From the NCBI GenBank assembly GCA_902803285.1, contig CADCPC010000030.1:1-35520 (forward strand): a DNA stretch of 35,520 nucleotides. The letters run 5' to 3'. Below are positions 3,437-24,428 of this stretch, one piece after another. The notes under the pieces were generated by a model. It searched no databases and was not told the DNA's origin. It saw only the letters and a program-made list of their open reading frames with translations. Origin of the DNA: an uncultured Erysipelotrichaceae bacterium. GTDB taxonomy: Bacteria > Bacillota_I > Bacilli_A > RFN20 > CAG-826. Positions within the stretch are counted from its first letter, which is position 1. Each line of letters begins with the position of its first letter. Both the position numbers and the translations under genes were made by a program.

Positions 3437-4447
3437 TTAACGTCTATCTCCAGGGAGTTTGTCGTGAACGAATAGTGCCATAACTGCTTTAGCAGTATGG
3501 ATTCTGTTTTCTGCTTCTTCATAAACAACTGATTGTGGTCCGTCGATAACTTCATCAACGACTTCGTTAACTCTATCTGCTGGAAGAGCATGCATATATC
3601 TACAAGTTGGTTTTGCTAGCGCCATCTTATCTGGTGTACATTTCCAAGCTTTTAATGCTAATAAAGCATCATCAACAACCGTTGTGGATTGGTTAGTAAC
3701 CCAGCTACCCCAGTTCTTAGGGAAGACGACATCTGCATCTTTATAAGCAGCATCCATATCATGAGTAATAGTTAAGCTACCACCATTTTCAGCTGCGTTC
3801 TTTCTTGCTTTTTCAATAACCCAGTCTGGTAAATCGTATCCTTCAGGATATGCTAATGTGACATCAATTCCATAACGAGGGAATAATAAGACTTGTGAAA
3901 CTGGAACAGAAATTGGTTTCTTATGTGTAGTGGCCATTGCCCAGATAACAGAAACTTTTAAGTGTTCTGTATGACCAAATTCATCTTCAATAGTCATTAA
4001 GTCTGCTAATGCTTGCATTGGGTGATATAAGTCACATTGTAAATTGATGATTGGGACTGTGGACCATTTAGCCATTTCACGAATATATTTATTACCTAAT
4101 CCCCAGTTGCAATATCTACAAGCAATCATGTGACCGAAGCTAGAAAGAATAACTGCAGTATCCTTTGCGCTTTCACCATGAGCAATTTGCATCATAGATG
4201 TGTCTAAGAATGTAGCGTGTCCGCCTAATTGAGCCATACCACTTTCGAAAGAGTTTCTAGTTCTTGTTGATTGTTCGAAGAACATCAAGAAACCAGTCTT
4301 GTTGGTTAGCCAATCTGTTTGTTCGTTTGCGTAGAAAGCATCTTTTAAATCACGAGATACTTTGAGCATGTAGTCGATTTCTTCTTTCGTGAAATCTTCA
4401 AGAGTAATTAAGTGTCTACCTGCAAATCTAGGTGCTACTTTTTCCAT
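3437..4447 (-). CDS. ygeW: YgeW-type knotted carbamoyltransferase
   Basis: A 336-residue member of the aspartate/ornithine carbamoyltransferase superfamily. The carbamoyl-phosphate site is visible as STRTR (residues 60-64) and HPMQ (142-145), and the second-substrate loop region reads MHALPADR. Ornithine transcarbamylases have HCLP there, which argues against an arginine-pathway enzyme. YgeW proteins occur with ygeY, ssnA and xanthine dehydrogenase-type genes. In this setting the enzyme is thought to run in the phosphorolytic direction on a ureido compound, releasing carbamoyl phosphate for carbamate kinase (inference). It is the last gene of operon A, 13 bp after ygeY, with AAGGAG before the ATG. 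At 336 residues it is shorter than E. coli YgeW, which I recall as near 396. Confidence 0.88.
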   Translation of the reverse strand: MEKVAPRFAGRHLITLEDFTKEEIDYMLKVSRDLKDAFYANEQTDWLTNKTGFLMFFEQSTRTRNSFESGMAQLGGHATFLDTSMMQIAHGESAKDTAVILSSFGHMIACRYCNWGLGNKYIREMAKWSTVPIINLQCDLYHPMQALADLMTIEDEFGHTEHLKVSVIWAMATTHKKPISVPVSQVLLFPRYGIDVTLAYPEGYDLPDWVIEKARKNAAENGGSLTITHDMDAAYKDADVVFPKNWGSWVTNQSTTVVDDALLALKAWKCTPDKMALAKPTCRYMHALPADRVNEVVDEVIDGPQSVVYEEAENRIHTAKAVMALFVHDKLPGDRR

Positions 4448-4460
4448 AATTTATTTCTCC

Positions 4461-5675
4461 TTATTTTTTAAGATTCTTTAAGTATAGTGATGGAAGTACT
4501 GCATATAGTGCAGCACAGATAACAAGGTCTTCTTTTCTTGTCTTTTCATTTGGAGCATGAGCTTCTTTTTCATCTCCTGGTCCAAATCCGATACAAGGAA
4601 TGCCGTATCTCCCCATAATGGAAACTCCGTTTGTGGAGAATGTCCATTTGTCAATGATAGGGGCTTTATGGAATAATTCTTCATAACCTTGTTTCATTGA
4701 TTGAACGAAGATACTTTCTTCTGGAATAACCCAAGTTGGGAAATAACATTCTGTTGGATAGAGCAAACCAGTGTAGCTTGCTCTTTCATATTTATACATT
4801 TCGACTTTTGCGTTAGCCGCTTTAACTGCTGGTAAATTTTGAATTTCCGCAATAGAAGTCTTATCGTTTTCACCAACTGTGAGTCTTCTATCTAAGCTGA
4901 TCCAGCAACCATCTGCGACTGCACATCTGCTAGGTGATTTATGGAAGATTTCACTGATAGTAACTGTGCCTTTTCCTAAGAACGGATCATACGCTAAACC
5001 TTTTTCATTTTTTTTTTTAACTTGCTCAATGATTGGAGCCATTTTATAGATTGCGTTATCTCCTCTTTCAGGAGCAGAGCCATGGCAAGAAATGCCTCTT
5101 ACAGAAACTTTGATTTCCATTCTTCCTCTATGTCCACGATAAATACGGCAGGAAGTCGGTTCTGTAGAAACGACAAATTCTGGTCTCACTTTGTCTTCTT
5201 CGATAATGTATTGCCAGCATAAGCCATCGCAATCTTCTTCTTGGACAGTACCAGTAATCACCAAAGTGTAATCATCTTCTAAATGTAAGTCTTTGATGAT
5301 TTTAGCAGCGTAGACCATTGCCGCCATACCGCCCTCTTGGTCACTAGTGCCTCTGCCACCGATATGAACATCATCTTCAAATCCTTCATAAGGATCAAAT
5401 GTCCAGTTTTTAATCTCGCCAATACCAACGGTATCAATATGAGCGTCCATACCGATTAAGTGACTTCCGTGTCCAATATAACCTAAGATGTTTCCCATAG
5501 GATCGATAACCACTTTATCAAATCCCACTTTTTCCATCTCTTGTTTAATACGAAGCACTACTTCTCTCTCTTCGCATGACTCGCTTGGAATGCGAACCAT
5601 ATCGCGAAGGAATTTAACCATATCCTCTTTGTAAAATTGAGCTCTCTTGAGAACTTCTTCAAAAGATACTTTCAT
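4461..5675 (-). CDS. ygeY: YgeY-type M20 metallohydrolase
   Basis: A 404-residue zinc-dependent hydrolase of the M20/ArgE/DapE family. Metal and catalytic residues are recognisable: MDAHIDTVG (H79, D81), [10 protein letters not shown] (D112), VQEED (E146 base, E147 ligand), STEPT (E172) and HAPNE near the C-terminus. The middle part, [16 protein letters not shown], is the dimerisation lid domain. YgeY is linked with YgeW and is called 'selenium metabolism-linked hydrolase' in family models. A role in hydrolysing a carbamoylated amino acid made from opened purine rings fits the cluster but is inferred. It lies 2 bp after the PLP enzyme gene with GGAAAGGA upstream. Confidence 0.9.
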
Positions 5676-5677
5676 CT

Positions 5678-7045
5678 TTATAATTCCTTTCCTCTCTTTT
5701 CTAAGATTTTTCGGTCATATTCATGAATCTTGTTATATTCATTTTCCCAGAATTCGATATGTTTCATGCTATCGAGATATTCTTTAGAATATCCAAATGG
5801 TAACCAATCTCTTTCTTTTTGTAAGAAGAGTTTTTCTTTAGCTTCTTCACTACGAGTATCTAAGATACCTTTTGTGTCGGCTCCCATAAAGATATCTTCA
5901 AACCATCTCTCTAGGACATTAGGAGTAACTTCTAATTCTCTTTCCTTGAGGTTTTGGATAACTGAATCATATCTATCAAAACTATCAGTAGCGATAGTAA
6001 CGACGTTATCATCTGGTCCAAGTCTTAAATATTTAGCCATTTTAATTGCGCCTAAGATATTACAAATACCGGAAACACCAAAGAGATTAACCATTGATTC
6101 TGCTAATTTCCTATCAATACCGTGTTTTACTAATACTTCAGTACCTTCGTGAATAACTTCTAAGCCTCTTACACAATCATCATCAACGATTTGAGTGATG
6201 AAGTCTGTGGTCAAAACGTTATGAATTAAGGTGCACATCTTATCGCCGATGCCTTCAATTCTATGTTGTCCACGACCACCATTGGTTAATGTAGAACATT
6301 CATGTGGTTCTAATGCAACGATTTTGCATTCTGGGAAGACAGCTTTAATTTGATCACCAGCTGCTAATGTTCCAGCACTACCAGGAGCGCTACAGAAAGC
6401 AGCAACACGACCATTACCAATGCCCTTAACTGCTTCAATACAAGAATTACCAGTAACATGTCTATGGAAACGATAGTTTGGTAATAATTCGAATTGAGCT
6501 AAGGTTCTATTTTTAGGATCTTTCTTTAATTCGTAAGTTCTTTCAAGAGTGAGAATGACATCGCTTTCACTACCTGGTGTTAAATCGAGTTTTGCGCCGT
6601 ATTTAGCGATTCTTTCATATCTCTCTTTACTCATGTTATCTGGCATGATGACAATCGCGTCATATTTCATTAAGTTAGTTATATAACTAACACCAATACC
6701 AAAGTTGCCAGTACTTGGTCCTAAGATTGTGTGTTTACCTGGAATGATTTCTCCATCCACACATCCTTCAATTAAAGTAGAATAGGCTGGTCCTACTTTA
6801 TGGCTTCCACTTGGGAAGTATTTACCAAGAAGAACAACGATATTTGCGTCAACTCCAGTAAGTTCTTTAGGAAGCACGATTTTGTTGACTTCGTTATTCT
6901 CATTTTTCCATGTGATGTTAAACAAGTTAATAGGGTCTAATTCATTTTCTTTTTTAGCCTTTAAAGCTTGCTTTCTCACCTCAGGATCTTGGTGATTTGG
7001 GTTCAACATTTCATCATATGTTGGACCAAATGGAATTTTTGACAT
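5678..7045 (-). CDS. Fold-type II PLP-dependent lyase-like enzyme (YgeX-position)
   Basis: A 455-residue pyridoxal-phosphate enzyme of the tryptophan-synthase-beta/cysteine-synthase fold. PLP would be held by Lys83 in [10 protein letters not shown] and by the substrate loop GPSTGNFG (109-116). A glycine-rich phosphate loop follows ([12 protein letters not shown]). A C-terminal extension of about 90 residues ([10 protein letters not shown] onward) is rich in charged helices. It sits between a second PLP enzyme and ygeY, the place where many clusters carry YgeX (2,3-diaminopropionate ammonia-lyase). Its sequence is not what I recognise as YgeX. A beta-eliminase or ammonia-lyase acting on a diamino acid is the working guess. 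The exact reaction is unknown. Confidence 0.75.
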
Positions 7046-7047
7046 AT

Positions 7048-8292
7048 CTAAATTACTCCTTTTCCTTTTAAGTAAATGTCTAACTTTTCAATATTAGGTT
7101 CCATTAGTTCTGGTTTTACAATTGCCTTTTGAGCGTTGTTAGGATCTTTTAATCCATTGCCAGTCACAATGATTGTGACGCTTTCATCTTTGCTAATGAT
7201 TCCTTCTTCAAGAGCCCTAATAAGTCCTGCTAAAGAAGCAACGCCTGCTGGTTCACCAAACACGCCTTCTTTTCGACCAAGAAGAGCCATCGCTTCAATA
7301 ATCTTTTCATCTGGCACACTAATCCACGCTCCTTTAGAGTTTTCAATGGCTCTCAAAGCTTTAGTTGGATTACGTGGAATGCCAACTGCAATACTATCAG
7401 CGATTGTGTTTTCTTCGCATTCCTTAAGAGGTTCATGATTCTTGCTAGCAACTACGAAAGGCTCACAACCAGTGGATTGAACTCCTAAAATTCTTGGAAT
7501 TCGATCAATTAAGCCAATTTTATGTAGTTCGTAGAACCCTTTATATACACCACCAACTGTGCAGCCATCTCCAACAGAGACAACTACCCAATCAGTAGGT
7601 TTGAAATTAAGTTGTTCAGCAATTTCTAAAGACACTGTTTTCTTTCCTTCAACCATGAATGGATTGATGGCAGCATTGCGGTTATACCAGTGATGTCTAG
7701 CAATTGCTTCTTTTGATAATTTGAACGCTGCTTTATAGTCGCCATCAACAACTACTAAAGTTGCGCCATATAATGAGATTTGAGTTAATTTACCAATAGG
7801 TGCTCTTTTCGGCACAAAGATAACAGCAGGTAAGCCCATATGAGCAGCGTGACATGCACAACTACTAGCAGCATTACCAGTAGAAGAACAAGCAATAACT
7901 TTTGCTCCAGATTCGATTGCTTTTAAAACAGCAACACCACTGGCTCTATCTTTGCTACTTCCAGAAGGATTTAATCCATCATCTTTAATGTATAGGTTCT
8001 TTAGCCCTAACTCGTCAGCGAGATTATGAGATTTGATGAGTGGAGTCCAACCAATTCTTAACATTTCGTCAATATGGTCAGTAGGTATCCCCATCATAGG
8101 AGCATATCTCCACATCGAATAATCTTTGTTATTTTCAAAATATTTTTTTGTTAGGACTTTCTTTAAAGCTTCATAATCATATTCAACATCTAAAATGCCT
8201 TTTTCACCACAATGTGGGCAGGTTAAAAGGTTATCTTTTGTTTCAAAGAATTCACCACATATTGTGCATCGATATCCTTTAATGTAGCTCAT
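7048..8292 (-). CDS. Threonine synthase-like PLP enzyme with zinc ribbon
   Basis: A 414-residue fold-type II PLP enzyme. The N-terminus carries a rubredoxin-like zinc ribbon (C9, C12, C25, C28), as in archaeal and clostridial threonine synthases. The PLP lysine is K114 in NPSGSSKDRA, followed by SSTGNAASS (substrate/carboxylate loop). The phosphate-binding loop is SVGDGCTVGG. The family includes ThrC, cysteate synthase and diaminopropionate-type lyases, so homology alone does not give the substrate. Being inside the ygeW/ygeY operon, 15 bp after xdhB and 2 bp before another PLP enzyme, it more likely handles a product of purine breakdown than makes threonine. No homoserine-pathway gene is nearby. 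Confidence 0.75.
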   Translation of the reverse strand: MSYIKGYRCTICGEFFETKDNLLTCPHCGEKGILDVEYDYEALKKVLTKKYFENNKDYSMWRYAPMMGIPTDHIDEMLRIGWTPLIKSHNLADELGLKNLYIKDDGLNPSGSSKDRASGVAVLKAIESGAKVIACSSTGNAASSCACHAAHMGLPAVIFVPKRAPIGKLTQISLYGATLVVVDGDYKAAFKLSKEAIARHHWYNRNAAINPFMVEGKKTVSLEIAEQLNFKPTDWVVVSVGDGCTVGGVYKGFYELHKIGLIDRIPRILGVQSTGCEPFVVASKNHEPLKECEENTIADSIAVGIPRNPTKALRAIENSKGAWISVPDEKIIEAMALLGRKEGVFGEPAGVASLAGLIRALEEGIISKDESVTIIVTGNGLKDPNNAQKAIVKPELMEPNIEKLDIYLKGKGVI

Positions 8293-8307: not shown

Positions 8308-9147
8308 TTATTTGATTTTTGTTAAGAAGTCTTTTAATAAGTTCATCGCCACTTTTTTACGATAATCCTTAGTACTTCTTTGGTCAGTTATTGGATTAAT
8401 AATTTCATCATATTTGCGGATAATTTCTGGAATTTGCTGTGAAAATTCATCGATTTTTAGTCCAATGTATTGTTTTTCAATGTCTCTATTTCTAACTACT
8501 GTTATAGAAACGCTGCCAAAACCAATTCTTAAATCTTTAATGATGCCCTCTTTAGTTATATATGCGCCTAAGAAAGATAATTTAGAAATTGATTCAGCGG
8601 CTCTACTACCGACTTTTTTCCAATAGTAATGTAAATCATGATGTGGGATAACTATCTCAGTTATCATTTCGTCAGGCTTTCGATCTATTTTTCTAACTCC
8701 TTTTATGAAGTCTTTTACTAATATTTCTCGTTTTGATTCTTTATTTTGTAGCACTAAATAAGCATCTAAAACATATAATGCGACCAAAGTGTCTCCAGCA
8801 GGAGAAGCATTGCCAATATTCCCCGCTAATGTCGCCATATTTCTGATGTTTGGAGAGGCTAGTTCACTAATAACATCTTTAAATAGTTGAGGCACTAATT
8901 CACTAGAAGAGATATCGCGATACTTTGTGGTAGCCCCAATATGAACCCCTTTATCATCACTTCTAATGAAGTTAAGCTCTTCAAGATTAGAGATATATAG
9001 AACATCTTTTTCAAAAGTTGGAAGTAGCCCACTACTACGATGTTTTTGCACCATTAAATCAGTGCCACCAGCAATGATATAGCAATCGTGATTAGATAAT
9101 ATATCTAATGCTTCAGAAAGATTTTTAGGAATAAAATGATTAATCAT
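8308..9147 (-). CDS. Molybdenum hydroxylase 1, FAD-binding subunit
   Basis: A 279-residue CoxM/XdhB-type flavoprotein subunit. AGGTD (26-30) contacts the FAD pyrophosphate. ATLAGNIGNASPAGD is the second FAD loop. A C-terminal domain of the CO dehydrogenase flavoprotein type follows. It passes electrons between the iron-sulfur subunit and the external acceptor. It overlaps the 2Fe-2S gene by 8 bp, with AAAGGAG before the ATG, so the three subunits are translationally linked in the order Mo, 2Fe-2S, FAD. Confidence 0.9.
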   Translation of the reverse strand: MINHFIPKNLSEALDILSNHDCYIIAGGTDLMVQKHRSSGLLPTFEKDVLYISNLEELNFIRSDDKGVHIGATTKYRDISSSELVPQLFKDVISELASPNIRNMATLAGNIGNASPAGDTLVALYVLDAYLVLQNKESKREILVKDFIKGVRKIDRKPDEMITEIVIPHHDLHYYWKKVGSRAAESISKLSFLGAYITKEGIIKDLRIGFGSVSITVVRNRDIEKQYIGLKIDEFSQQIPEIIRKYDEIINPITDQRSTKDYRKKVAMNLLKDFLTKIK

Positions 9148-9610
9148 TCTTTTCTCCTTTCTGAGATGCTAATCTCACTGAATTTATAATTCCTTGATAA
9201 CCAGTGCAGCGGCATAGGTTACCAGAAAGAGCAACTTTAATTTCCTCATCAGTTGGATGAGGATTACTTTGTAATAAAGCGTATGTAGCAATAATCATTC
9301 CTGGTGTACAGAATCCACATTGACTGCCACCCATCTTGGCGAAAGCATCAGCGATAACATTGTATTCTTTACTTTCTCTAATGCCTTCGATAGTCATTAC
9401 TTCTTTGCCAATGACATTTGCAATAGGAGTTAAACATGAATCATAAGGGATATTATCTACTAAAACTGTGCAAGCACCACAACTACCTTCGCCACATCCT
9501 TCTTTTGTGCCAGTGAGATGTAATTCGTTTCTAATAACATCTAAAAGCCTCATTGATGGATCAACATCAACGGTAACGTTATGTTTGTTGATAACAAAAT
9601 TAATCTTCAT
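9140..9610 (-). CDS. Molybdenum hydroxylase 1, 2Fe-2S subunit
   Basis: A 156-residue iron-sulfur subunit with both clusters of the xanthine dehydrogenase family. The plant-ferredoxin-type cluster uses C39, C44, C47 and C59 (GCGEGSCGAC). The second, all-helical cluster uses C98, C101, C133 and C135 (CGFC and CRC). It relays electrons from the molybdenum site to FAD. The start at 9610 lies within the end of the Mo-subunit gene and follows GGAG by about 9 bases. Confidence 0.94.
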   Translation of the reverse strand: MKINFVINKHNVTVDVDPSMRLLDVIRNELHLTGTKEGCGEGSCGACTVLVDNIPYDSCLTPIANVIGKEVMTIEGIRESKEYNVIADAFAKMGGSQCGFCTPGMIIATYALLQSNPHPTDEEIKVALSGNLCRCTGYQGIINSVRLASQKGEKND

Positions 9611-11693
9611 GGCTCAATAACTCCATAATATATTCTGGATTAGCAGGGACTTTGTTTACTTTGTGTTTAATTGCCATTTCTATGGCAAGAGCAATTGCAG
9701 GAGCTCCTCCTACAAAAGTTAATTCTCCCGCTCCTTTAGCGCCAAAAGCACCATAAGGGAATGGATTATCAACAAATCCTGTTTCTAATTCAGGAACATC
9801 TTCAATAGTAGGGATGATGTAATCAGATAAATTTCTTTGTCTAAATTTTCCATCAATTGCTACTTCGTTTTCTAAATAGCCATAGCCTAATGCTTGAACA
9901 ATTCCACCGTCAGCCTGGCCAACAACAATTCTTTCATCTATGCAGTGACCTACATCATATGTAGACCAGCAACCATCGACTTTGATTTGATAAGTGAGAG
10001 GATCAAAAGATACTTCCACAATATTGACTCCCCAAGCATATCCTGGATAGGCATCTCCTTGCATTGTTGCTTCATCCCAATGGATGAAATTAGGAGCGAC
10101 ATATGGTTCAATAATTTCTTGTTCTTCTCCATCTACCCAAATATCTTTAAGATGCTGTGCAGCTTTAGCCGCTAAACCACCAACAATGATAATTGTTCTG
10201 CTAGCAGCCGTAGGTCCAGTAGAAAGAGTCAATGATGTATCAGGTGCATCATAAATAACTTTATCTTCTGGTATTCCAAGAGTGTCCACCACAATTCGCT
10301 TTAAGGTAGTTCTATTACCTTGCCCAAAATCAACTTGTGATGTGTAGAATGTGACCACTCCGTCTTTGTCTTTTTTAATTCTTAACTTGGCTTTGATAAT
10401 ATCGCTTTCACCACCACCGGTAAATCCGCAGCCGTGTAGGAACCAGCTCATTCCAATACCGCGATTGCTGCCTGGTCTAGAATAAAGTTTTACTTTATTT
10501 TCATAATCAGACATCTTCATCGCTTTATCGCGTAGTTCTTTTAATACGATTGGGTCTCTAAAGATACCGTTTGTAGAAGTGATATCTCCTTGTTTAACCA
10601 TATATTTGTTTCTGAGCTCTAATGGGTCAATTCCAAGATGATTTGCTAAATGATGAATAAATAATTCAATTGCAAAAATCGATTGAGGAGAACCAAATCC
10701 TCTAAAGGCTGCACTAGGAACTTTATTGGTACAATAAGCATCACCATTAACGATGAGATTATCAAATGTGTAGGCGTTGGTGCACGCAATTAGGGCACGA
10801 GATAAGACAACTCCTGAACAACCTTTATAAGCGCCACCATCAATATGAACATGGATATTCAAACCTATAATGTTTTTGTGCTTATCTAAATAAGCAGATA
10901 TCTCTGTTCTACTTGGATGCCTTTTAGTAGTGAATGCAATATCTTCAGGACGATCAAATATCATCCTAATTGGTTTCCTTATTTTTAATAACGCTGTGGC
11001 AAGTTGTCCACCCATCAGAGATGGATAATGTTCTTTCCCACCAAAAGCACCACCAACTGCTGGCTGAATAACTCTTACCTTATTCTCTGGGTAATTAGTC
11101 ACTCTCATAATTGCTTTATGGATATAGAAAGGACACTGCATTGATGCTTTGACGGTAATGACATCATTGTCGAAATAAACAATCATGCCTTGAGTTTCTA
11201 AATATGCTTGTTCTTGATAACCAGTTGCAAAGGATTCGCTATAAATTTCAGCAGCACCTTTAAATAATTCTGGGTTACCTTTAGTAAATTCTTTGTAAAT
11301 ATAAGAATTCACCATTTCAAATACTGGTGTCTCTTCTTCATAGGTAATATTGACTTGAGCAGCCAAGTCTAAGCACTTGCCTTTATCTTCTCCAACAATA
11401 AGACCAATAGTCTCACCTAAATAGTTAACTTGTTTGTCAACAAATATTGGCCAATCATCAAATATGATATTACATATATTTTCTCCCACTATATCTTTAG
11501 CGGAAATAAAGTAATACCCTTTAGGTAATTCAGGTAATTTAATATCTAAAACTTTGCCTTTAGCAATAGTTGATCTTACAGAAACCGCAGTTAAAAGATC
11601 ATCCATTTGGATGTCACCAGTAAATATGGCTTTGCCAGCCATCTTATCAGCGTTATCTACTTTAGTAACTGAGGTTTTGTATTCTGGTAGCAT
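9600..11693 (-). CDS. Molybdenum hydroxylase 1, molybdopterin-binding large subunit (purine-type)
   Basis: A 697-residue large subunit of the xanthine oxidase family, on the short side (typical 750-780). The molybdenum-site signature VGGAFGGKE (213-221) ends in Glu221, aligning with the purine-binding Glu of bovine xanthine oxidase (E802). Arg331 in AAFRGFGSPQ aligns with the conserved active-site Arg. GAKGAGE near the C-terminus provides the catalytic Glu657. This Glu/Arg/Glu set suggests hydroxylation of a purine such as xanthine or hypoxanthine, or the reverse reduction of urate. A closely related heteroaromatic substrate cannot be excluded. It lies 1 bp after the preA-like gene and overlaps the 2Fe-2S gene by 11 bp. 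Confidence 0.88.
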   Translation of the reverse strand: MLPEYKTSVTKVDNADKMAGKAIFTGDIQMDDLLTAVSVRSTIAKGKVLDIKLPELPKGYYFISAKDIVGENICNIIFDDWPIFVDKQVNYLGETIGLIVGEDKGKCLDLAAQVNITYEEETPVFEMVNSYIYKEFTKGNPELFKGAAEIYSESFATGYQEQAYLETQGMIVYFDNDVITVKASMQCPFYIHKAIMRVTNYPENKVRVIQPAVGGAFGGKEHYPSLMGGQLATALLKIRKPIRMIFDRPEDIAFTTKRHPSRTEISAYLDKHKNIIGLNIHVHIDGGAYKGCSGVVLSRALIACTNAYTFDNLIVNGDAYCTNKVPSAAFRGFGSPQSIFAIELFIHHLANHLGIDPLELRNKYMVKQGDITSTNGIFRDPIVLKELRDKAMKMSDYENKVKLYSRPGSNRGIGMSWFLHGCGFTGGGESDIIKAKLRIKKDKDGVVTFYTSQVDFGQGNRTTLKRIVVDTLGIPEDKVIYDAPDTSLTLSTGPTAASRTIIIVGGLAAKAAQHLKDIWVDGEEQEIIEPYVAPNFIHWDEATMQGDAYPGYAWGVNIVEVSFDPLTYQIKVDGCWSTYDVGHCIDERIVVGQADGGIVQALGYGYLENEVAIDGKFRQRNLSDYIIPTIEDVPELETGFVDNPFPYGAFGAKGAGELTFVGGAPAIALAIEMAIKHKVNKVPANPEYIMELLSHED

Positions 11694-11694
11694 T

Positions 11695-12774
11695 TTAGAA
11701 TTTAATAGCTCGTACTGGGCATCTAGAAGCGCATAATCCGCATCTAAAGCATTTATCTTTGTTAAACGAAGGACAACCTTCTACCATATCGATTGCAAAA
11801 TATGGGCAGTTTCTTTCACACAATCTGCAATGTGTGCATTTATCCTTATCAACTGCTGGTAATTCGTGTTCATAAGTCACCATATTTGTAAGATGCGTAT
11901 CGATAACTTCTTGAACGGAACTAAATCCGTATTTTTCTAATTCTTTTGGTAAGTCTGCAATGACTTTTGCATATAATTCTTTTCCCTTGAGCATAGGTGC
12001 GCTTAACATGCCTACCGCACTAGCGCCTGCTAAAAGGAATTCAATGACATCTTTTGCGGAAGAAACTCCACCTACCCCAATAACTGTTAAGCTAGGTTCA
12101 GCTTGTTTGATTGTGTAGACTGTTGCTAAAGCAAGAGGCTTAATAACTGGTCCGCTCATCCACACGAATCCTTTATCGTTAGAACACGCCATTTTGCGGT
12201 TAGCAATATCAATCACCATGCTTGGTCCTAATGAGTTAATAGCCACCACACCATTAGCACCATTCTCTTTAATAATTCTTGCAAAATGAGCAGGATCTGG
12301 AATGTGTGGAGATATTTTCATATAGAAAGGCTTTGTGGTTAGGCTTCTAATTGTTCTAACTACTTCACCCATCTTTTCATGATCAGTTCCAACATAATGG
12401 CAGCTCACTTCAAAAGCGTCTGCAAATTCATCTAATAATGGAATGAGTTCTTCCATATCTTCTTTGGTGTAACCAACTGAGATAATTAGAGGAGTGTCTC
12501 CTTTTTTAGCTTTTAATTCTGGGAGGAATTCATTAATCCATTTTTCTTTTGGATATTCTGTCCAAAGCTCACAGTTATAAATAGCGTTTCCTTCTCCAAT
12601 GATACATGGATGAGGAATATGAGCATCTTTAGTGGAAATAGTTTTAGCGACAAGTCCCCCTAAACCAGCTTCTTTAAGCCAAAGAATCTTCTCTGCATCG
12701 CCAACAAGAGGTCCTGCTGCTGGCATTAAAGGGTTCTTAAGAACAAGGCCATCAAATTTTGTAGAAAGATCCAT
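11695..12774 (-). CDS. PreA-like dihydropyrimidine/dihydroorotate dehydrogenase with two 4Fe-4S sites
   Basis: The 359-residue protein joins an FMN-binding TIM barrel of the dihydroorotate dehydrogenase class to a C-terminal ferredoxin with two CxxCxxCxxxCP motifs (CTHCRLCERNCP and CFRCGLCASRCP). The N-terminus, LKNPLMPAAGP, is typical. The active loop reads FEVSCHYVG, where dihydropyrimidine dehydrogenases have NxSCPHG, so the Cys is kept but Asn, Pro and His are changed. The FMN phosphate site GVGGVSSAKD is present. It is the first gene of operon A and takes the place that the much larger YgfK reductase holds in better-known clusters. Reduction of an oxidised purine or pyrimidine ring is inferred. 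No PreT partner is in the window. Confidence 0.82.
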   Translation of the reverse strand: MDLSTKFDGLVLKNPLMPAAGPLVGDAEKILWLKEAGLGGLVAKTISTKDAHIPHPCIIGEGNAIYNCELWTEYPKEKWINEFLPELKAKKGDTPLIISVGYTKEDMEELIPLLDEFADAFEVSCHYVGTDHEKMGEVVRTIRSLTTKPFYMKISPHIPDPAHFARIIKENGANGVVAINSLGPSMVIDIANRKMACSNDKGFVWMSGPVIKPLALATVYTIKQAEPSLTVIGVGGVSSAKDVIEFLLAGASAVGMLSAPMLKGKELYAKVIADLPKELEKYGFSSVQEVIDTHLTNMVTYEHELPAVDKDKCTHCRLCERNCPYFAIDMVEGCPSFNKDKCFRCGLCASRCPVRAIKF

Positions 12775-12803
12775 GAATTATCTCCTTCTGACGCAAAATA
12801 AAA

Positions 12804-12829
12804 TAACAAGGAAAATATTTTCATTGTTA
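12804..12829. promoter_or_regulatory. 26-bp near-perfect palindrome in the operon A leader
   Basis: The half-sites TAACAAGGAAAAT and ATTTTCATTGTTA form a 26-bp dyad with a single mismatch. It lies between the promoter and the ribosome binding site of the preA-like gene, roughly 20-45 bases after the predicted transcription start. It is most simply a repressor operator, though a short mRNA hairpin is possible. Confidence 0.6.
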
Positions 12830-12854
12830 AATAGTTACGTCTCTCATTGACTAT

Positions 12855-12883
12855 ATTATATATAGTATTAATTTTGTTTTTAA
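12855..12883 (-). promoter_or_regulatory. Sigma-A-type promoter of operon A
   Basis: On the minus strand TTAAAA (12883-12878), a 17-bp spacer and TATAAT (12860-12855) precede the preA-like gene. This leaves a leader of about 70 bases with AGAAGGAGA before the ATG. Confidence 0.55.
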
Positions 12884-12918
12884 GAAAAAAATAAAAAAGC
12901 CACTGTTAATCAGTGACT
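12884..12918 (-). terminator. Terminator of operon B (after ssnA)
   Basis: On the minus strand AGTCACTG, loop ATTAA, CAGTGGCT is followed by TTTTTATTTTTTT. The stem includes the last codons and stop of ssnA. It separates operon B from the promoter of operon A. Confidence 0.88.
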
Positions 12919-14192
12919 CTTTTCCATAGCTCTTTGCTATATTCTTTGGATTTTTCCAACTCTTTTTTAACGCTGTTTGATGTGAGTTCATAATTCTTCA
13001 CAAGCTGTTTGCCATTAACATAGACGTTTCTTGGTTTGAAGTTAGGAAATAGGCCAAAGAAGATGTGTCCAAATGCGTTTTTATAATTCATTTCAGTAAA
13101 TGGGACATAATCCACTGTTAGGAAGTCAGCAACATAACCATTTTGAAGTTTTCCAATCTTAACACCAAGTCTTCTGCTAACGTATTCGTAAGCATTAACA
13201 ATACAGTTTTTAATATCATCAAGCGAAACTCCTAAAGGAGAACTATTTTTTAGATGTCCTAAATAGTAAGTGTTGAGGTATTCAGTAGTCATCGATGAAG
13301 ATAAGCCGTCATTGCCAATCATTACTTTAACCCCAGAATCAATGATGCTTCTAATGTCAGTAATGCCAACCGCATTATTTAAGTTACTTGATGGGTTAAT
13401 AACAACATAAGCTTTTCTTTCTTTGATGATTTCAATTTCTTTTGCAGTTGTAAATGTGCAGTGCACTAGTAGTGAATCTGGTTTAATAAGATGATACTTG
13501 TCTAGTCTTTCAACAATTGTAGTTTGATAGTTCATCAAGCAATCATCGACGTCCATTTTACTTTCAGCAACATGAATATGAATAGGTGTATCTCCTTGTT
13601 TCTTAGCGATTTCCTTCAACGAATTATCACTAAGTGACATAGAAGCGTGCATGCCAAATAAACCACCAACATGTTTGGAAGCAAAACTACTATTTTCTTT
13701 AATGCAGTCTTTGATGTTATAACGATCGCTACTTTCAAAGCAGAACAAACCTCTCATGTGAAGTTTATTCACTAATGCTTTTTGAAGTGATGACAAAGAG
13801 CCAACAATTTCTTCTCCAGAAGCATGATGATCAATTATTGTTGTGACACCATTAAGTAAAAATTCGCTTCCGGCTGCAATGCCAGAATAATAAGTAATGT
13901 CGTTATCAATCTTATCATCAAGCTTCCACCACATTTGATCTAAGATGTCTTGGAAGTTTTTAGGATTGAATGGAAGAGATAAGCCTCTAGCAAAAATTGA
14001 ATAAATATGTGAATGAGCGCAAACAAATGAAGGCATAACGATTTGACCATGTCCGTGAATGACATGATAGAAGTTATTTTTGAATTGACTCATTGGGCCA
14101 ACTTCACGAACGATATCATCAAAAACGATATATCCATCTTCGATAAAATTATCATAATCAAATATCTTTACATTAATAATCGCTTTAAACAT
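12906..14192 (-). CDS. ssnA: SsnA-type amidohydrolase (aminohydrolase)
   Basis: A 428-residue amidohydrolase-superfamily enzyme of the SsnA/AtzA/guanine-deaminase group. Metal ligands are visible: H60 and H62 (AHSH), H207 (IHVAES), H244 (LVHCTF) and D295 (GNDG). There is no carboxylated lysine, so it should have a single metal ion and a deaminase- or ring-opening-type active site. SsnA genes accompany ygeW, ygeY and hydantoinases. The protein probably hydrolyses a C-N bond in a purine-derived ring (inference). It follows the hydantoinase gene by 2 bp and ends operon B. Confidence 0.85.
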   Translation of the reverse strand: MFKAIINVKIFDYDNFIEDGYIVFDDIVREVGPMSQFKNNFYHVIHGHGQIVMPSFVCAHSHIYSIFARGLSLPFNPKNFQDILDQMWWKLDDKIDNDITYYSGIAAGSEFLLNGVTTIIDHHASGEEIVGSLSSLQKALVNKLHMRGLFCFESSDRYNIKDCIKENSSFASKHVGGLFGMHASMSLSDNSLKEIAKKQGDTPIHIHVAESKMDVDDCLMNYQTTIVERLDKYHLIKPDSLLVHCTFTTAKEIEIIKERKAYVVINPSSNLNNAVGITDIRSIIDSGVKVMIGNDGLSSSMTTEYLNTYYLGHLKNSSPLGVSLDDIKNCIVNAYEYVSRRLGVKIGKLQNGYVADFLTVDYVPFTEMNYKNAFGHIFFGLFPNFKPRNVYVNGKQLVKNYELTSNSVKKELEKSKEYSKELWKRVTD

Positions 14193-14194
14193 AT

Positions 14195-15505
14195 TTAGCT
14201 CCTTTTAATATCACAATTTACTAACCTACCAACATTATTAATAAACTCGCCATTTTTAACAATGAATTTTCCTCTTAATAATGTATCAGTAATTCTTTGG
14301 TCAGTAGGTAGATTTTCATATATAGAATAGTCGACATTCCCATGAGGTTTTTTAACTACTCCATCAAGGTTTTCCACAATCGCTAAATCCGCTAAATTTC
14401 CAACTTTAATTCCAGTTTTGTCAGTAAATTTCTCAAGTATTGCAGTATTTTTGCTCATTTTATCAATAACTTCATCGCCAAACATTTTGTGTAAGACAAT
14501 ATAAGAATGTTCAATACCTCCAATGCCTAGTGGATGACCTGCTAATAATGGGTGAGTTTTCTTATCTTCGCTAGTAAACGAACAGTGATCTGTACCAATA
14601 GCGAAAACATGACTAAAGTTAACACACATTAATCTTCTTTCTTCTTCACTTCTTAGTGGAGGAGCAAATGTATATAGATATCCTTTTTCGCCATTTAAGA
14701 GGTCTTTATTTAAAGCAAAGTATTGAGGACAAGATTCGATAAAAATATTTTTGTTTAGACTTTCACCAAATTGCTCAATAATTTTCTTAAGTGTATATCC
14801 GCTTGAACAGTGGACCATATATAGATGTCCATCAGTTTCAACTGCGTATTTGCAAAGTTTTAAAGCTTCACTAGTTTCACATTCGCTATTTCTTGCTTCT
14901 GATATATCTGTGCATTTAAGAGTAGGATCTCGATTAATCATCTCATCTTTTTCAATATGAGCAGTTACCACGAAATCATATTTTTTGGAAAGTCTTAGTA
15001 ATTCAATGATGTCTTTATCGTTTGTTCTACGATGAGTTTCTGAATACGTGGTGAATAACTTGATAGTGTTTATACCAAGTTCTTTCATCTTTAAGACATA
15101 TTCTTCTAAATCGCCATTAGGTTCCCTAATGCAAGCATGGAAATGGTAATCCACAGGACATTTCTTTGCGAGTTTTAATCTTTCATTAAAAGATTTTTCT
15201 AACTCTTCAGCGTTTCTACTAGGATCTAAGAAATCAATAATTGTGGTAACTCCACCTAAGGCAGCGCTTTTGCCTCCACTATAAAAGTCATCTCTTGAAG
15301 TAACCGTCCCACACCATAATTCAAAATGAACATGTGGATCAATTAGCCCAGGAATAATCTTTTTATTGGAAGCATCGTAACACTCTTTAGCATCAGGCTC
15401 TTCATTTCCTATATAGGAAATCTTTTCCCCGCTAATACCAATATTAGTTTTAATAAAGTGATGGTCTATATAGGCTTCACCATTTTTGATTAGTAGATCA
15501 AGCAT
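14195..15505 (-). CDS. hyuA: Dihydropyrimidinase/hydantoinase-like cyclic amidohydrolase
   Basis: A 436-residue binuclear zinc hydrolase. The H58-x-H60 motif (DPHVHFE), the carboxylated Lys149 in TIKLFTTY, His183 (AHIE), His232 (VHCSSG) and Asp306 (GTDHC) match the D-hydantoinase/dihydropyrimidinase set in order. The product opens cyclic amides such as hydantoins, dihydropyrimidines or partly reduced purine rings in the cytoplasm. Its place between a molybdenum hydroxylase and ssnA points to the purine route. It starts 1 bp after the Mo-subunit gene ends and is followed 2 bp later by ssnA. Confidence 0.88.
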   Translation of the reverse strand: MLDLLIKNGEAYIDHHFIKTNIGISGEKISYIGNEEPDAKECYDASNKKIIPGLIDPHVHFELWCGTVTSRDDFYSGGKSAALGGVTTIIDFLDPSRNAEELEKSFNERLKLAKKCPVDYHFHACIREPNGDLEEYVLKMKELGINTIKLFTTYSETHRRTNDKDIIELLRLSKKYDFVVTAHIEKDEMINRDPTLKCTDISEARNSECETSEALKLCKYAVETDGHLYMVHCSSGYTLKKIIEQFGESLNKNIFIESCPQYFALNKDLLNGEKGYLYTFAPPLRSEEERRLMCVNFSHVFAIGTDHCSFTSEDKKTHPLLAGHPLGIGGIEHSYIVLHKMFGDEVIDKMSKNTAILEKFTDKTGIKVGNLADLAIVENLDGVVKKPHGNVDYSIYENLPTDQRITDTLLRGKFIVKNGEFINNVGRLVNCDIKRS

Positions 15506-15506
15506 T

Positions 15507-17834
15507 TTATTTTTTAAGTTCCTTAAGACCTTTAAGAATTTTTTCAGGAGTAATTGGCAAAGTATGTACTCTTACTCCAGTAGCGTTATAAATCGCGTTA
15601 CAAATAACGGCAGGAGGAGTATCAATACCAATCTCTCCTACTGATTTAGCACCAAATGGGCCAGTTGGTTCATAAGAATCAGCGAATTCACTTGTTAGTT
15701 TATGGATCTCTTTATGTGTAGGGATATGGTAATTTAAGAAGTTATTACTTAACAAATTACCTTTCTTATCGTATTTCACATCTTCAAAGCAAGCCATACC
15801 TAAGCCTTGAACAATGCCACCTTCGACTTGTCCTCTAGCAAGCATTGGGTTGATAGTTGTTCCACAGTCAGTGACAGTTACGTAATTGAGAACTTCATAT
15901 TCACCTGTTTCTAAATCAACTTCCACTTCAGCATAAGCCGCCATAAATGGAGGAGGAGAAACGTGTCCGATATAGCTCTCTGTTACAGAAACCTGATGTT
16001 GGTCTTTGTTATATAACCATAAGACAGATAAGTCGTTGAGAGAGACCTTTTTATCTCCACTAGTAAATACTTCTCCATCAAATTCAACAGTGGATTCTTT
16101 AACTTCAAGATATCCTGCTGCTTCTTTAATAAGTCTTGCTCTCATTTTTTGAGCAGCATTCCAAGCAGCGTTACCACTTATATAAGTAGTTGAAGAAGCA
16201 TAAGCTCCGCAATCAAATGGAGTTAAGTCTGTATCAGAAGAATAGATAAGAATCTTATCTACTGTTGTTTGTAATTCTTCAGCAACGATTTGAGAAATAA
16301 TTGTGTCACTACCTTGCCCAATATCGGTAGCACCGACAGTAACCATATATGAACCACCATCATTGAGTTTGATAGAAGCGCTTCCCATATCCATAAATGG
16401 GATGCCACTTCCTTGCATAGCAATAGCCATACCATACCCTCTAACTTTAGTGTCGCTGATAACTTTTCTTGGCCAGTTTTCTTCCCAACCAATTAATTCA
16501 GCACCACGTTTAATACAATATGGAAGTTTACATGATTCCATAATCATCGCAGTACCTTTGGTACCTTCACCCATAATTTCAAAAATTGGGGAAGTTTCTT
16601 TTTCTTTCATGGAATTCTTTTCACGAAGAATTCGTGGATTAATTCCTAATTTTTCTGCAAGGATATCAATTGTACTTTCAAGAGCATAGTTGCCTTGAAT
16701 TGCACCATATCCTCTATATGCGCCTGCAGAGACGTGGTTAGTGTAAACAACTTCTCCACCAAATCTCACCGCGTTGACTTTGTTATATAAAGGTAAAACT
16801 TTACTACCAACAATCATAAAGACTGTTAATGAGTGTTCGCCATATGCGCCTGTATCACTTAATGAACGACAATCAATAGCTTTGATTGTGCCATCTTTCA
16901 TTGCCCCAATTTTCATATTAATGCGCATTGGGTGACGTGTATAAGAAGCACCAAAAACTTCTTCTCTGGTATAGACCATTTTACTTGGTCTACCTGTTCT
17001 TAATGTTGTTAAGGCACAGAAGAATTCACCGTGGAATGCTTGTTTACCACCAAATCCACCACCAACACGAGGTTTAATAAATCTAATTTGACTAACTGGC
17101 ATACCTAATGTAGTAGCCATAATTCTTCTCATGTGGAAAGGAGTTTGTGTTGAAGAATAGATAACTAATCTATTATGTTCATCAAGTCTAGCGTTACTAC
17201 TATGAGGTTCAATCATCGCATGTGCTTGTGCTTGTGAATAGAATGTTCCATCAACAACAACATCACATTTCTTTAATTCTTCTTCGACATTGCCGACTTG
17301 CATCTCATATGCAGCGGCTATATTTCTTTTTGGTTCAAAGCCAATTGGGAACATTTCTTTAATGCCATCTTCTGGGTGAATAATAGAAGGGTTATCCACT
17401 GCTTTCTCAAAATCTAAAACAGGTTCTAAAACTTCATATTCAACTTCGATTAACTTAAGAGCGTCTTCCGCGATTTCTTCATTAATTGCGGCAACCATCG
17501 CTACTTCATCACCAACATATCTCACATATTCATCTAGGATGAATTTATCATGTGGTGAAGGTTCTGGATATCCTTGACCTGCTCTAGAAAAAGAAACATG
17601 TGGGACATCTTTATAAGTTAAGACTAAAGCAACTCCATTAAGAGCCTTAGCTTTGCTAACATCAATGTTTTTGATATGCGCAAAAGCATGAGGAGAACGT
17701 AGTATTTTAATTACTAATGAGTTTTGATCGGCTAAATCATCAGTGTAGAAACTTCTACCTTGCATTAAGCCTTTGCCATCTACAGAGTGAGTTTTTTGGT
17801 TAACCACTCTCATCTTTTTCTTATCGATAATCAT
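15507..17834 (-). CDS. Molybdenum hydroxylase 2, molybdopterin-binding large subunit
   Basis: A 775-residue full-length xanthine dehydrogenase family large subunit. The N-terminal domain starts at VNQKTHSVDGKGLMQGRSFY and the Mo-binding domains follow. RVGGGFGGKQ (257-265) has Gln265 where subunit 1 has Glu. AYRGYG provides Arg374, and FGAKSVGE provides the catalytic Glu734. As I recall, E. coli XdhA also has KQ at this site, so purines remain possible, but the pocket differs from hydroxylase 1 of operon A. AGGAGG stands 7 bases before the ATG. The gene is 2 bp after its 2Fe-2S partner and 1 bp before the hydantoinase gene, so its product is probably the hydantoinase substrate or a precursor of it. 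Confidence 0.88.
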   Translation of the reverse strand: MIIDKKKMRVVNQKTHSVDGKGLMQGRSFYTDDLADQNSLVIKILRSPHAFAHIKNIDVSKAKALNGVALVLTYKDVPHVSFSRAGQGYPEPSPHDKFILDEYVRYVGDEVAMVAAINEEIAEDALKLIEVEYEVLEPVLDFEKAVDNPSIIHPEDGIKEMFPIGFEPKRNIAAAYEMQVGNVEEELKKCDVVVDGTFYSQAQAHAMIEPHSSNARLDEHNRLVIYSSTQTPFHMRRIMATTLGMPVSQIRFIKPRVGGGFGGKQAFHGEFFCALTTLRTGRPSKMVYTREEVFGASYTRHPMRINMKIGAMKDGTIKAIDCRSLSDTGAYGEHSLTVFMIVGSKVLPLYNKVNAVRFGGEVVYTNHVSAGAYRGYGAIQGNYALESTIDILAEKLGINPRILREKNSMKEKETSPIFEIMGEGTKGTAMIMESCKLPYCIKRGAELIGWEENWPRKVISDTKVRGYGMAIAMQGSGIPFMDMGSASIKLNDGGSYMVTVGATDIGQGSDTIISQIVAEELQTTVDKILIYSSDTDLTPFDCGAYASSTTYISGNAAWNAAQKMRARLIKEAAGYLEVKESTVEFDGEVFTSGDKKVSLNDLSVLWLYNKDQHQVSVTESYIGHVSPPPFMAAYAEVEVDLETGEYEVLNYVTVTDCGTTINPMLARGQVEGGIVQGLGMACFEDVKYDKKGNLLSNNFLNYHIPTHKEIHKLTSEFADSYEPTGPFGAKSVGEIGIDTPPAVICNAIYNATGVRVHTLPITPEKILKGLKELKK

Positions 17835-17836
17835 GA

Positions 17837-18286
17837 TTAATCCTCCTTGAGATATCTCTTAATGGCATTCATCTGACTCTGTAAGCCGCTACAACGGCAT
17901 AAATTACCAACGATGTAGTCATTAATCTCTTCATCAGTTGGATTTTTTAATTCTCTTTTAAGAGCATAAATTACTAAGGCATAACCAACATTACAGAATC
18001 CACATTGATCCGCTCCTTCTTCAGAGAAGTAATATGAAATCTTAGCGGCTTCTTCTTGTATGCCTTCAACAGTTGTGATGTGTTTGCCTTCTATTTGAGC
18101 AGTCAAAATTGAGCAACTCATTGCAGGCTTATCATCAACCAATAATGTGCAACTACCACATGTAGATTCATTGCAGCCAATCTTAATAGACTTAACACCG
18201 TGACTTCTTAATGTATGAGAGAGGTATTCATTTGGATTAACATCATAGTTAACCAAAACATCATTTAGATAGAATGATACTTTCAT
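17837..18286 (-). CDS. Molybdenum hydroxylase 2, 2Fe-2S subunit
   Basis: A 149-residue electron-transfer subunit. The first 2Fe-2S cluster is bound by C38, C43, C46 and C58 (GCNESTCGSC) and the second by C95, C98, C130 and C132 (CGFC, CRC). It shares the family layout with the subunit in operon A but is clearly divergent, so the two hydroxylases are not a recent duplication. The start overlaps the stop of the FAD-subunit gene (TAATG). Confidence 0.94.
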   Translation of the reverse strand: MKVSFYLNDVLVNYDVNPNEYLSHTLRSHGVKSIKIGCNESTCGSCTLLVDDKPAMSCSILTAQIEGKHITTVEGIQEEAAKISYYFSEEGADQCGFCNVGYALVIYALKRELKNPTDEEINDYIVGNLCRCSGLQSQMNAIKRYLKED

Positions 18287-19080
18287 TATTTACTTACCTC
18301 CTCTAGTCCACGTCTAATATATACACGAGCTAAATCAATACGATATTCTTTGCTCGCATCTTTATTATCTAAGAATTGTAATTCTTCAGTTGCTATCTCT
18401 GCTGCTTTGACAAAGTCGTCTCTACTTGGAGAAGAGATACTATTAATATAATCGCTAGCCTTATGAGCAATAGCAGCGACCATTGGTCTAGCACCAACTA
18501 CAATTGTGTATTTATCGTTAACTTCACTAACTGCAATATTAACAATAGGGAAATCAAGAGCGGTCGTCTTTACTTTCTTAAAGAAGCCTTTTCCTACATG
18601 TTTTTTAATACGAATATCCACTAATATGGCGTTTATCTTTCCGCGGAAAAGTAAGAATTCTTCTAACTTCATCTCTTGTTCTGGATAGAAGTGAAGAGTG
18701 ACATCATATGGTAATAAACCGGTAATAACATCAGAGAAAGGATATCTTCCCATGATGGAGCCACCAATTGTGGCCAAATTTCTAAAATTGACACCCATTA
18801 CTTCTCTAGTAGCAAAGCTAATCGCATCACCATATAGAGACTTAATAAGTGGAGAATTTTCAAAATCTCTTTCTGTAACCATTGAACCAACGATCACTTC
18901 TTCTTTTGTCTCGCTTATTTTGTTTAAGCCAAGGGTAGACAAATCAATCAATGCATTATAGCTTTGACCCATTTTCTTGATCCAAAGTCCACCAGCGAGT
19001 AAAACATTCTTTGGATCTTCTTGTAACTTAGAGTATGCATCTTCTAGAGAAGAGGCGCGGTAGTATTCATTTGCTCTCAT
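18286..19080 (-). CDS. Molybdenum hydroxylase 2, FAD-binding subunit (divergent)
   Basis: A 264-residue flavoprotein subunit of the XdhB/CoxM type. The first FAD loop reads LLAGGLWIKK instead of the usual AGGTDL, and the second reads LATIGGSIMGRYPFSD instead of TLGGNxANASPAGD. The fold is recognisable, but cofactor contacts are altered. It may bind FAD differently or need another acceptor. It is the first of the three hydroxylase 2 genes, with AAAGGA 8-12 bases before the ATG, directly after mocA. Confidence 0.82.
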   Translation of the reverse strand: MRANEYYRASSLEDAYSKLQEDPKNVLLAGGLWIKKMGQSYNALIDLSTLGLNKISETKEEVIVGSMVTERDFENSPLIKSLYGDAISFATREVMGVNFRNLATIGGSIMGRYPFSDVITGLLPYDVTLHFYPEQEMKLEEFLLFRGKINAILVDIRIKKHVGKGFFKKVKTTALDFPIVNIAVSEVNDKYTIVVGARPMVAAIAHKASDYINSISSPSRDDFVKAAEIATEELQFLDNKDASKEYRIDLARVYIRRGLEEVSK

Positions 19081-21214: not shown

Positions 21215-22132
21215 ATGTCTAGATATGTTGTTAGTTTAGGTGGCAATGCTTTAGGAAATAACGCCGAAGAACAAAAACTTTTAGTGAGCAATGTTGCTAA
21301 AAACATCGTTAAGTTAATGAAAGATGGCCACGAAGTAGTTATCGTTCACGGTAATGGTCCACAAGTTGGCATGATTAATCTTGCTTTCACTGACGCTAAA
21401 TCAGTTCCTGATATGCCATTCCCAGAATGTGGGGCTATGAGCCAAGGATATATTGGATGGCATTTACAAAATGCCTTACAAAACGAATTAAAGAATCAAG
21501 GTGTTAAAAGAAATGTCGCTACTATCATTACTCAAGTAGTAGTTGATAAGAATGATCCACTATTCCAAAACCCTTCTAAACCTGTTGGTAGTTTCTATAG
21601 CAAAGAAGAAGCTGAAAAAATCGCTTCTGAAAAAGGCTACACGATGAAAGAAGACGCTGGTAGAGGATATAGGAGAGTTGTGCCTTCACCTCTTCCAATC
21701 GATATCGAAGAGAAAGAAATGATCTCTAAACTAGTTAAAGCTGGTGATGTTGTTATTTGTGCTGGTGGCGGAGGCATCCCAGTAATTAGAGAAGGCCAAT
21801 CTCTAACCGGTGTTGCTGCAGTTATCGACAAAGATTACGCAAGTGCATTAGTCGCAGAACTAGTCGAGGCAGATTATCTAGTTATTCTTACCGCAGTTGA
21901 TAACGTTTATATCAATTTCAGACAACCAGATCAAATCAAACTTGAGAAGGTATCATTAGAAGAAATTAAGAATTATATGAAGGGCGATTATTTCGCAAAA
22001 GGAAGCATGTATCCAAAGGTCAATGCATGTGTCAAATTCTTAAATAAATGCCCAGGTAAAAAAGCAATTATTGCTGCTCTAGAAAACGCTGCTCTTGCAT
22101 TCGATGAAAAAAGCGGAACAATCATCAAATAA
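21215..22132 (+). CDS. arcC: Carbamate kinase
   Basis: A 305-residue amino-acid-kinase-fold enzyme that makes ATP from carbamoyl phosphate and ADP, releasing CO2 and ammonia. Typical ArcC segments are SLGGNALG at the N-terminus, IVHGNGPQVG, GYRRVVPSP, CAGGGGIPVI and GSMYPKVNA. GTGAGG supplies a ribosome binding site 8 bases before the ATG. No arginine deiminase or ornithine transcarbamylase accompanies it. Instead it is divergent from the operon that ends with hyuA and ssnA and near ygeW, so its carbamoyl phosphate most likely comes from the YgeW reaction (inference). Confidence 0.95.
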   Translation: MSRYVVSLGGNALGNNAEEQKLLVSNVAKNIVKLMKDGHEVVIVHGNGPQVGMINLAFTDAKSVPDMPFPECGAMSQGYIGWHLQNALQNELKNQGVKRNVATIITQVVVDKNDPLFQNPSKPVGSFYSKEEAEKIASEKGYTMKEDAGRGYRRVVPSPLPIDIEEKEMISKLVKAGDVVICAGGGGIPVIREGQSLTGVAAVIDKDYASALVAELVEADYLVILTAVDNVYINFRQPDQIKLEKVSLEEIKNYMKGDYFAKGSMYPKVNACVKFLNKCPGKKAIIAALENAALAFDEKSGTIIK

Positions 22133-24414: not shown

Positions 24415-24428
24415 AATAAAATTCTCCT

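Follow-up and report, generated by a model that had tools for sequence, protein, structure and literature searches.

It is fairly probable that two adjacent fold-type II PLP enzymes form the last functional unit of a gene cluster for reductive uric-acid/purine degradation, in which a threonine-synthase-like protein (hereafter PLPthrC) would replace YgeX as the lyase and a cysteine-synthase-related protein of 455 residues (PLP455) would be a constant second enzyme. What is new, on the best reading, is a variant ending of an already known uric-acid pathway, with the pair in the place of YgeX. Many urate-degrading anaerobes of gut and sediment have the pair next to the preceding step and no YgeX, and one of the two proteins appears to have assumed its job. 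Synteny, co-occurrence, exchange with YgeX, residue signatures, and the lack of a threonine pathway are observed; from them we infer both reactions and their substrate.

A Purine Gene Cluster Lacking YgeX

The window (the whole stretch of DNA analysed, 35,520 nucleotides) belongs to a 1.04-Mb draft genome of small-genome gut/rumen Bacilli and carries one gene cluster on the minus strand, from about 19080 to 3437, plus a carbamate-kinase-like gene on the plus strand (table 1). The gene set matches the reductive uric-acid pathway of Li et al. (2025, PMC12507026), minus YgeX. In that pathway, urate is converted successively into yanthine, ureidomethylhydantoin, 2,3-diureidopropionate, albizziin, 2,3-diaminopropionate, and pyruvate; YgeY takes off the last ureido group, leaving 2,3-diaminopropionate, YgeX makes pyruvate from the latter, and UacX replaces YgfK in C. 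difficile (PMC12507026). A search with curated models found YgeX, the last pathway enzyme, to be missing from the window cluster. SsnA, HyuA, Mo-hydroxylases, UacX or YgfK, YgeY, a carbamoyltransferase, and carbamate kinase are shared with the uric-acid clusters of E. coli and C. difficile (PMC12507026), from which the window differs in having the pair for YgeX, a carbamoyltransferase that by model is not YgeW, and two Mo-hydroxylase sets. Unlike YgeX in its own system, PLPthrC is accompanied here by a second PLP enzyme.

Table 1. Genes of the cluster in the window, with the model scores or other evidence for each
Feature	Position	Strand	Evidence
PLPthrC: threonine-synthase-like fold-type II PLP protein, N-terminal zinc ribbon, 414 aa	7048..8292	-	TIGR00260 218 bits (cut-off 167)
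PLP455: cysteine-synthase-related fold-type II PLP protein, N- and C-terminal extensions, 455 aa	5678..7045	-	CysK-like, below cut-off
YgeY hydrolase	4461..5675	-	TIGR03526 683 bits (cut-off 321.5)
OTC-superfamily carbamoyltransferase, YgeW position	3437..4447	-	TIGR03316 (YgeW) 181 bits (cut-off 500); TIGR00658 (ornithine carbamoyltransferase) 259 bits (cut-off 281)
FAD subunit, molybdenum hydroxylase 1	8308..9147	-	NF043083 XdhB 149 bits, below cut-off
2Fe-2S subunit, molybdenum hydroxylase 1	9140..9610	-	ORF; syntenic in relatives
Molybdopterin subunit 1	9600..11693	-	ORF; syntenic in relatives
UacX-like dihydroorotate-dehydrogenase-family reductase with ferredoxin domain	11695..12774	-	NF005574 164 bits, below cut-off
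SsnA-like aminohydrolase	12906..14192	-	Best matches PRK07203 359 and TIGR03314 329 bits, both below cut-off
HyuA-like hydantoinase	14195..15505	-	Best match TIGR02033 (D-hydantoinase) 203 bits, below cut-off
Molybdopterin subunit 2 (second Mo-hydroxylase)	15507..17834	-	ORF; syntenic in relatives
2Fe-2S subunit, Mo-hydroxylase 2	17837..18286	-	ORF
FAD subunit, Mo-hydroxylase 2	18286..19080	-	ORF
Carbamate-kinase-like protein (YqeA role)	21215..22132	+	ORF; matches YqeA-type genes of other clusters

The two PLP genes are intact minus-strand reading frames separated by 2 bp, and they encode the lysine motifs (K83 and K114) and the zinc ribbon given in a preliminary description of this DNA. That description also placed YgeW and YgeY in the cluster: the YgeY is genuine by its curated model, but the carbamoyltransferase in the YgeW position scores below the models of both YgeW and ornithine carbamoyltransferase. 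SsnA, HyuA, and UacX of the window do not reach their curated cut-offs either, so that the substrate chain is read from synteny.

The gene order Mo2-HyuA-SsnA-UacX-Mo1-FeS-FAD-PLPthrC-PLP455-YgeY-OTC is kept in the genus and in other families, and purifying selection is strong on the coding sequences of both PLP455 (dN about 0.07, dS about 1.0) and PLPthrC (dN 0.09, dS 1.6). Because the pair and its neighbors keep their order in relatives and the coding sequences are under such selection, the pair is not a chance association, which the conserved arrangement across families and phyla rules out.

Conservation is uneven along the cluster: within the genus, PLP455, YgeY, and the carbamoyltransferase are mostly 90–98% identical to those of the window, and HyuA, SsnA, and the FAD subunit of the first Mo-hydroxylase diverge faster (about 58–67%; window 8308–17834). 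The carbamoyltransferase is the most conserved of all cluster genes, with 95–99% identity among congeners, and carries KNWGSW and HALP motifs, whose OTC counterparts we take to be SMG and HCLP. A guanine-deaminase-like gene at 27131–27586 recurs beside the cluster in relatives, and the stretch adjoining the cluster at 22202–25652 presumably holds phosphoglycerate-dehydrogenase-like, SerC-type aminotransferase, and DUF1015-like genes together.

Families and Active-Site Residues of the Two PLP Proteins

PLPthrC, with its Schiff-base lysine K114 in NPSGSSKDRA and a zinc ribbon formed by C9, C12, C25, and C28, passes the threonine synthase model TIGR00260 (218.4 bits; cut-off 167.1) and falls far short of the YgeX model PRK08206 (63.3 bits; cut-off 276) and of the cysteate synthase model TIGR03844 (97.7 bits; cut-off 324.9). 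Its nearest relatives in sequence and in fold (AF2 model, pLDDT 86) are the threonine synthases (ThrC; T. thermophilus 1V7C, M. tuberculosis 2D1F), with which it shares the KDR lysine motif. In the phylogenetic tree, PLPthrC sequences form one group (support 60/90) beside, and outside, the ThrC sequences (94/90), and YgeX forms a separate group with 100/100 support.

Residues separate PLPthrC from both of these enzymes. The phosphate of phosphohomoserine is bound in T. thermophilus ThrC, we assume, by T88, S155, R160, and N188. These positions could be located in the alignment and are intact in six of six ThrCs; in the PLPthrC family, unlike in ThrC, all four are changed, to A141 (61/61 sequences), A/G208, L/T/M213, and D242 (61/61). 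The Schiff-base lysine is kept in all 61 family members, which have newly conserved residues as well: R205, K217, S118, and D242 (61/61 each), together with D299 (60/61). Asp120 of YgeX (E. coli numbering), presumably catalytic, is an aspartate in six of six YgeX sequences, whereas PLPthrC has T138 there in 60 of 61, and its chemistry would thus need a different set-up. Curated model, tree, and residues together rule out that PLPthrC is a YgeX. By its sequence, PLPthrC is best described as a threonine-synthase-like clade whose phosphate site has been lost.

One could take PLPthrC for an ordinary threonine synthase and PLP455 for the cysteine synthase of the organism, both lying here by chance; the TIGR00260 match would agree, as would the search of the window genome, which found no other ThrC-family gene. 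We nevertheless regard this as most improbable. Of 34 cluster-bearing genomes, 30, that of the window among them, lack homoserine dehydrogenase and homoserine kinase (thrB) at their cut-offs; in these 30, threonine synthesis is therefore excluded, and PLPthrC has no phosphohomoserine supply. The other four have homoserine dehydrogenase/thrB, and the two that were checked (G262 and G155) carry a separate thrC elsewhere. Together with the family-wide loss of the phosphate site, this rules out threonine synthase for PLPthrC, an activity that the preliminary description had set against its own proposal. A normal CysK encoded elsewhere in the window genome likewise makes it unlikely that PLP455 is an ordinary cysteine synthase.

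PLP455, whose lysine K83 lies in PSGSHKVG, is far below all curated cut-offs. Its best model is CysK (TIGR01139, 132.6 bits; cut-off 351), and it is as far from YgeX (TIGR03528, 21.3 bits, cut-off 532; PRK08206, 24.3 bits, cut-off 276) as the preliminary description had supposed for both proteins, neither of which matches the YgeX family. The same description's term "TrpB-like" has to be dropped: no TrpB model was matched at E ≤ 0.001, the predicted structure (AF2 pLDDT 88.6) is nearest in fold to CysK and beta-cyanoalanine synthase, and the likeness to TrpB is confined to the "HK" motif. With CysK, PLP455 shares a TSGN-type loop, a glutamine, a GTGGT-type loop, and a serine near the PLP nitrogen; the CysK catalytic set is retained in 36 of 36 sequences as K83, STGN 111–114, Q184, and S325, corresponding to the catalytic lysine, the TSGN loop, Gln143, and Ser273 of CysK. 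Unlike CysK, PLP455 has an N-terminal extension of about 60 residues and a C-terminal one of about 85, KVG for KDR, and DK for AG in the pocket, and it gains D268, K269, and H275 in or just after the segment that reads HKIQGIGAG in CysK. Its sequences form a clade of their own (100/100) beside CysK (100/96), so by phylogeny PLP455 is to be placed as a new clade next to cysteine synthase. Because the CysK residues are kept and D268, K269, and H275 are gained, the sequence suggests as substrate an alpha-amino acid with a basic side chain, handled via aminoacrylate.

Co-occurrence with YgeY and Exchange with YgeX

We searched 392 genomes drawn evenly from the phylum (YgeY over its cut-off; PLP455 at E ≤ 1e-60, PLPthrC at E ≤ 1e-90, and YgeX at E ≤ 1e-60). 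The genomes with YgeY and those with PLP455 were identical, 28 in number (18 of 154 genera); PLPthrC occurred in 27 of these and in none of the rest. The hypergeometric probabilities of this co-occurrence are about 1e-40, uncorrected for kinship among genomes that are related and not independent samples. YgeX, present in 4 of the 392, coincides with this set only in G262, which is also the one YgeY- and PLP455-bearing genome without PLPthrC; there it occupies the PLPthrC slot next to PLP455, in the order PLP455-YgeX-YgeY-YgeW-SsnA-YgfK. This YgeX reaches 475 bits with PRK08206 (cut-off 276) and 499 with TIGR03528 (cut-off 532), and its neighbors include a true YgeW (755; cut-off 500) and YgfK (1323; cut-off 835). 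Other loci vary in further genes. The f9, f14, and f31 loci have, between the FAD subunit gene and PLPthrC, an extra gene of about 570 aa that the window cluster does not have and that encodes an adenine deaminase in L054 (6159–7874), the locus tested (598 bits; cut-off 472). In f25 clusters, YgfK-sized, SsnA-like, and HyuA-like genes lie beside the pair, and the one locus tested, L067, has a guanine-deaminase-like gene (364 bits; cut-off 375).

When the scan was widened beyond the phylum, to 84,980 species genomes, it yielded 590 PLP455 relatives, 80 of which were kept; they occur in Bacillota, Chloroflexota, Bacteroidota, Ignavibacteria, Elusimicrobia, Acidobacteria, Planctomycetes, SAR324, and others, and the cultured strain zrk2 has the pair. 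The flanks of 98 PLP455 loci, many cut by contig ends, contained a ThrC-like gene in 58 cases, SsnA in 48, YgeY in 48, and a Mo-hydroxylase in 47. Whole-genome searches of 50 PLP455 genomes across phyla found YgeX absent from 47. The three exceptions are Acididesulfobacillus acetoxydans, in which PLPthrC, PLP455, and YgeX lie side by side in one cluster (L114:8594–12974), so that PLPthrC and YgeX are not strictly exclusive; a SAR324 genome (L162), with YgeX directly beside PLP455 and no PLPthrC in the fetched stretch; and Clostridium ZS2-4, in which a YgeX close to HyuA and YgeY takes the place of the pair, PLP455 is elsewhere, and the cluster OTC is 71% identical to the carbamoyltransferase of the window. 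Among 80 genomes sampled from a Bacteroidota order, 15 had both PLP455 and PLPthrC, and 3 and 4 had a single one of them (Fisher P = 4e-10). Among those with PLP455 only, G505 (L235) has YgeX directly after PLP455 and no PLPthrC in the fetched stretch, and G519 and G545, where PLP455 lies on short contigs, have no YgeX either; PLPthrC-only matches in G536 and G543, with no purine genes around, are probably ordinary ThrCs.

YgeX thus stands beside PLP455 in the PLPthrC position in three separate lineages (G262, L162, and L235), as expected if PLPthrC and YgeX share a job and PLP455 has another. Two fold-type II PLP enzymes found beside YgeY or PLP455, PLPthrC and YgeX would catalyze the same reaction from different clades. 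The proposal of the preliminary description that the pair is a second solution to the last step remains the best reading, because the pair takes the place of YgeX, both members are tied to YgeY, and nearly every pair-bearing genome lacks YgeX; it needs changing in that the two proteins are not equivalent halves, the ThrC-like one being swapped with YgeX and the 455-residue one being kept beside it. A simple equation of the pair with YgeX is set aside accordingly. PLP455 probably has a reaction of its own, separate from that of PLPthrC or YgeX, since it is constant beside either lyase and present without either in some genomes. It also lies away from recognized purine genes in L126, L127, L130, L131, L134, and Elusimicrobia loci.

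A single heteromeric lyase or channelled complex, with PLP455 as a required subunit and PLPthrC inactive alone, would account for the adjacency of the genes, for their co-inheritance with YgeY in Bacilli, and for PLP455 directly adjoining YgeX where PLPthrC is missing. It is unlikely, given that PLP455 is alone or unlinked in several genomes, that each protein keeps its own PLP lysine and pocket residues, and that in vitro E. coli YgeX needs no partner but YgeY (PMC12507026).

Two side observations concern the wider family. In three Elusimicrobia loci (L151, L164, and L172) with no recognized purine genes, PLP455 is followed by a conserved protein of 213–220 aa with a CxxC-type N-terminus, hinting at another use of PLP455. 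In an Ignavibacteria MAG (L161:127–2334), PLPthrC and the C-terminal part of a Mo-hydroxylase subunit appear to share one open frame, possibly a fusion.

Proposed Reactions and Significance

In the scheme that we favor, with PLPthrC as lyase and PLP455 as second enzyme, the upstream enzymes and YgeY would deliver 2,3-diaminopropionate. PLPthrC, of threonine-synthase-family descent and presumed to have lost phosphohomoserine binding, would act as a putative 2,3-diaminopropionate ammonia-lyase, beta-elimination giving aminoacrylate and then pyruvate and ammonia, and would be a non-orthologous stand-in for the unrelated YgeX. PLP455 comes from the cysteine-synthase branch of the fold and keeps residues predicted to make aminoacrylate from an alpha-amino acid; it would be a constant partner that draws on the same pool of amino acids, probably on the same diamino acid. 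Racemization or enantiomer-specific elimination of diaminopropionate and beta-replacement are all candidate reactions, among which we make no choice; most likely, PLP455 would take the other diaminopropionate enantiomer, as lyase or racemase, or replace the beta-amine. The pair bears on the stereochemistry of the pathway, because YgeX accepts both enantiomers and L-specificity is the rule in the families of ThrC and CysK. The breadth of YgeX was reported along with the D-specificity of HyuA, and pathway chirality is open (PMC12507026, PMC12990295).

Alternatively, the pair may act on an earlier or other intermediate (2-amino-3-ureidopropionate or 3-amino-2-ureidopropionate) or form a product other than pyruvate, for example, serine or cysteine. 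The CysK-like PLP455 with its new charged pocket segment (D268, K269) would suit such a role, it is disputed in which order the ureido groups leave (PMC12990295), and a cluster of strain zrk13, with genes named cysteine synthase, threonine synthase, OTC, XDH, and adenine deaminase, was reported to be induced in a condition with thiosulfate, a CysM-type nucleophile (PMC8397711). We find this quite unlikely, because YgeY, present in all 28 genomes, would take off the remaining ureido group, and because the place of PLPthrC is taken by the pyruvate-forming YgeX (PMC12507026). Passages of the same and a related paper report a cluster in strain zrk29 as induced by DNA and RNA and do not link the two PLP genes to diaminopropionate (PMC8397711, PMC10470597); both clusters are taken here as the papers describe them. 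The induction of these two clusters in transcriptomes speaks for the scheme that we favor, with the pair at the end of purine breakdown. Our search of the literature on ThrC or CysK homologs in urate degradation returned nothing beyond the zrk13 transcriptome.

Returning to the lyase and its constant partner, it is a reasonable possibility, advanced here tentatively, that PLP455 catalyzes a reaction new to the pathway (as a racemase, an enantiomer-specific lyase, or a beta-replacement enzyme giving an amino acid from purine carbon) and forms with the ThrC-derived lyase an independently evolved two-enzyme end of anaerobic purine fermentation, widespread across phyla.

It was not until 2025 that the anaerobic uric-acid pathway, which has relevance to gout, was elucidated. 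In the published survey, a match to Pfam PF00291 within 15 genes counted as "YgeX"; because PLPthrC and PLP455 both satisfy PF00291, a survey at this level cannot separate YgeX from the pair, and the published YgeX distribution probably includes it. If our reading is true, many bacteria counted as YgeX-bearing would finish the pathway with different enzymes, and annotations as threonine synthase or cysteine synthase would be misleading, for instance where they are taken to show that an organism lacking homoserine makes amino acids.
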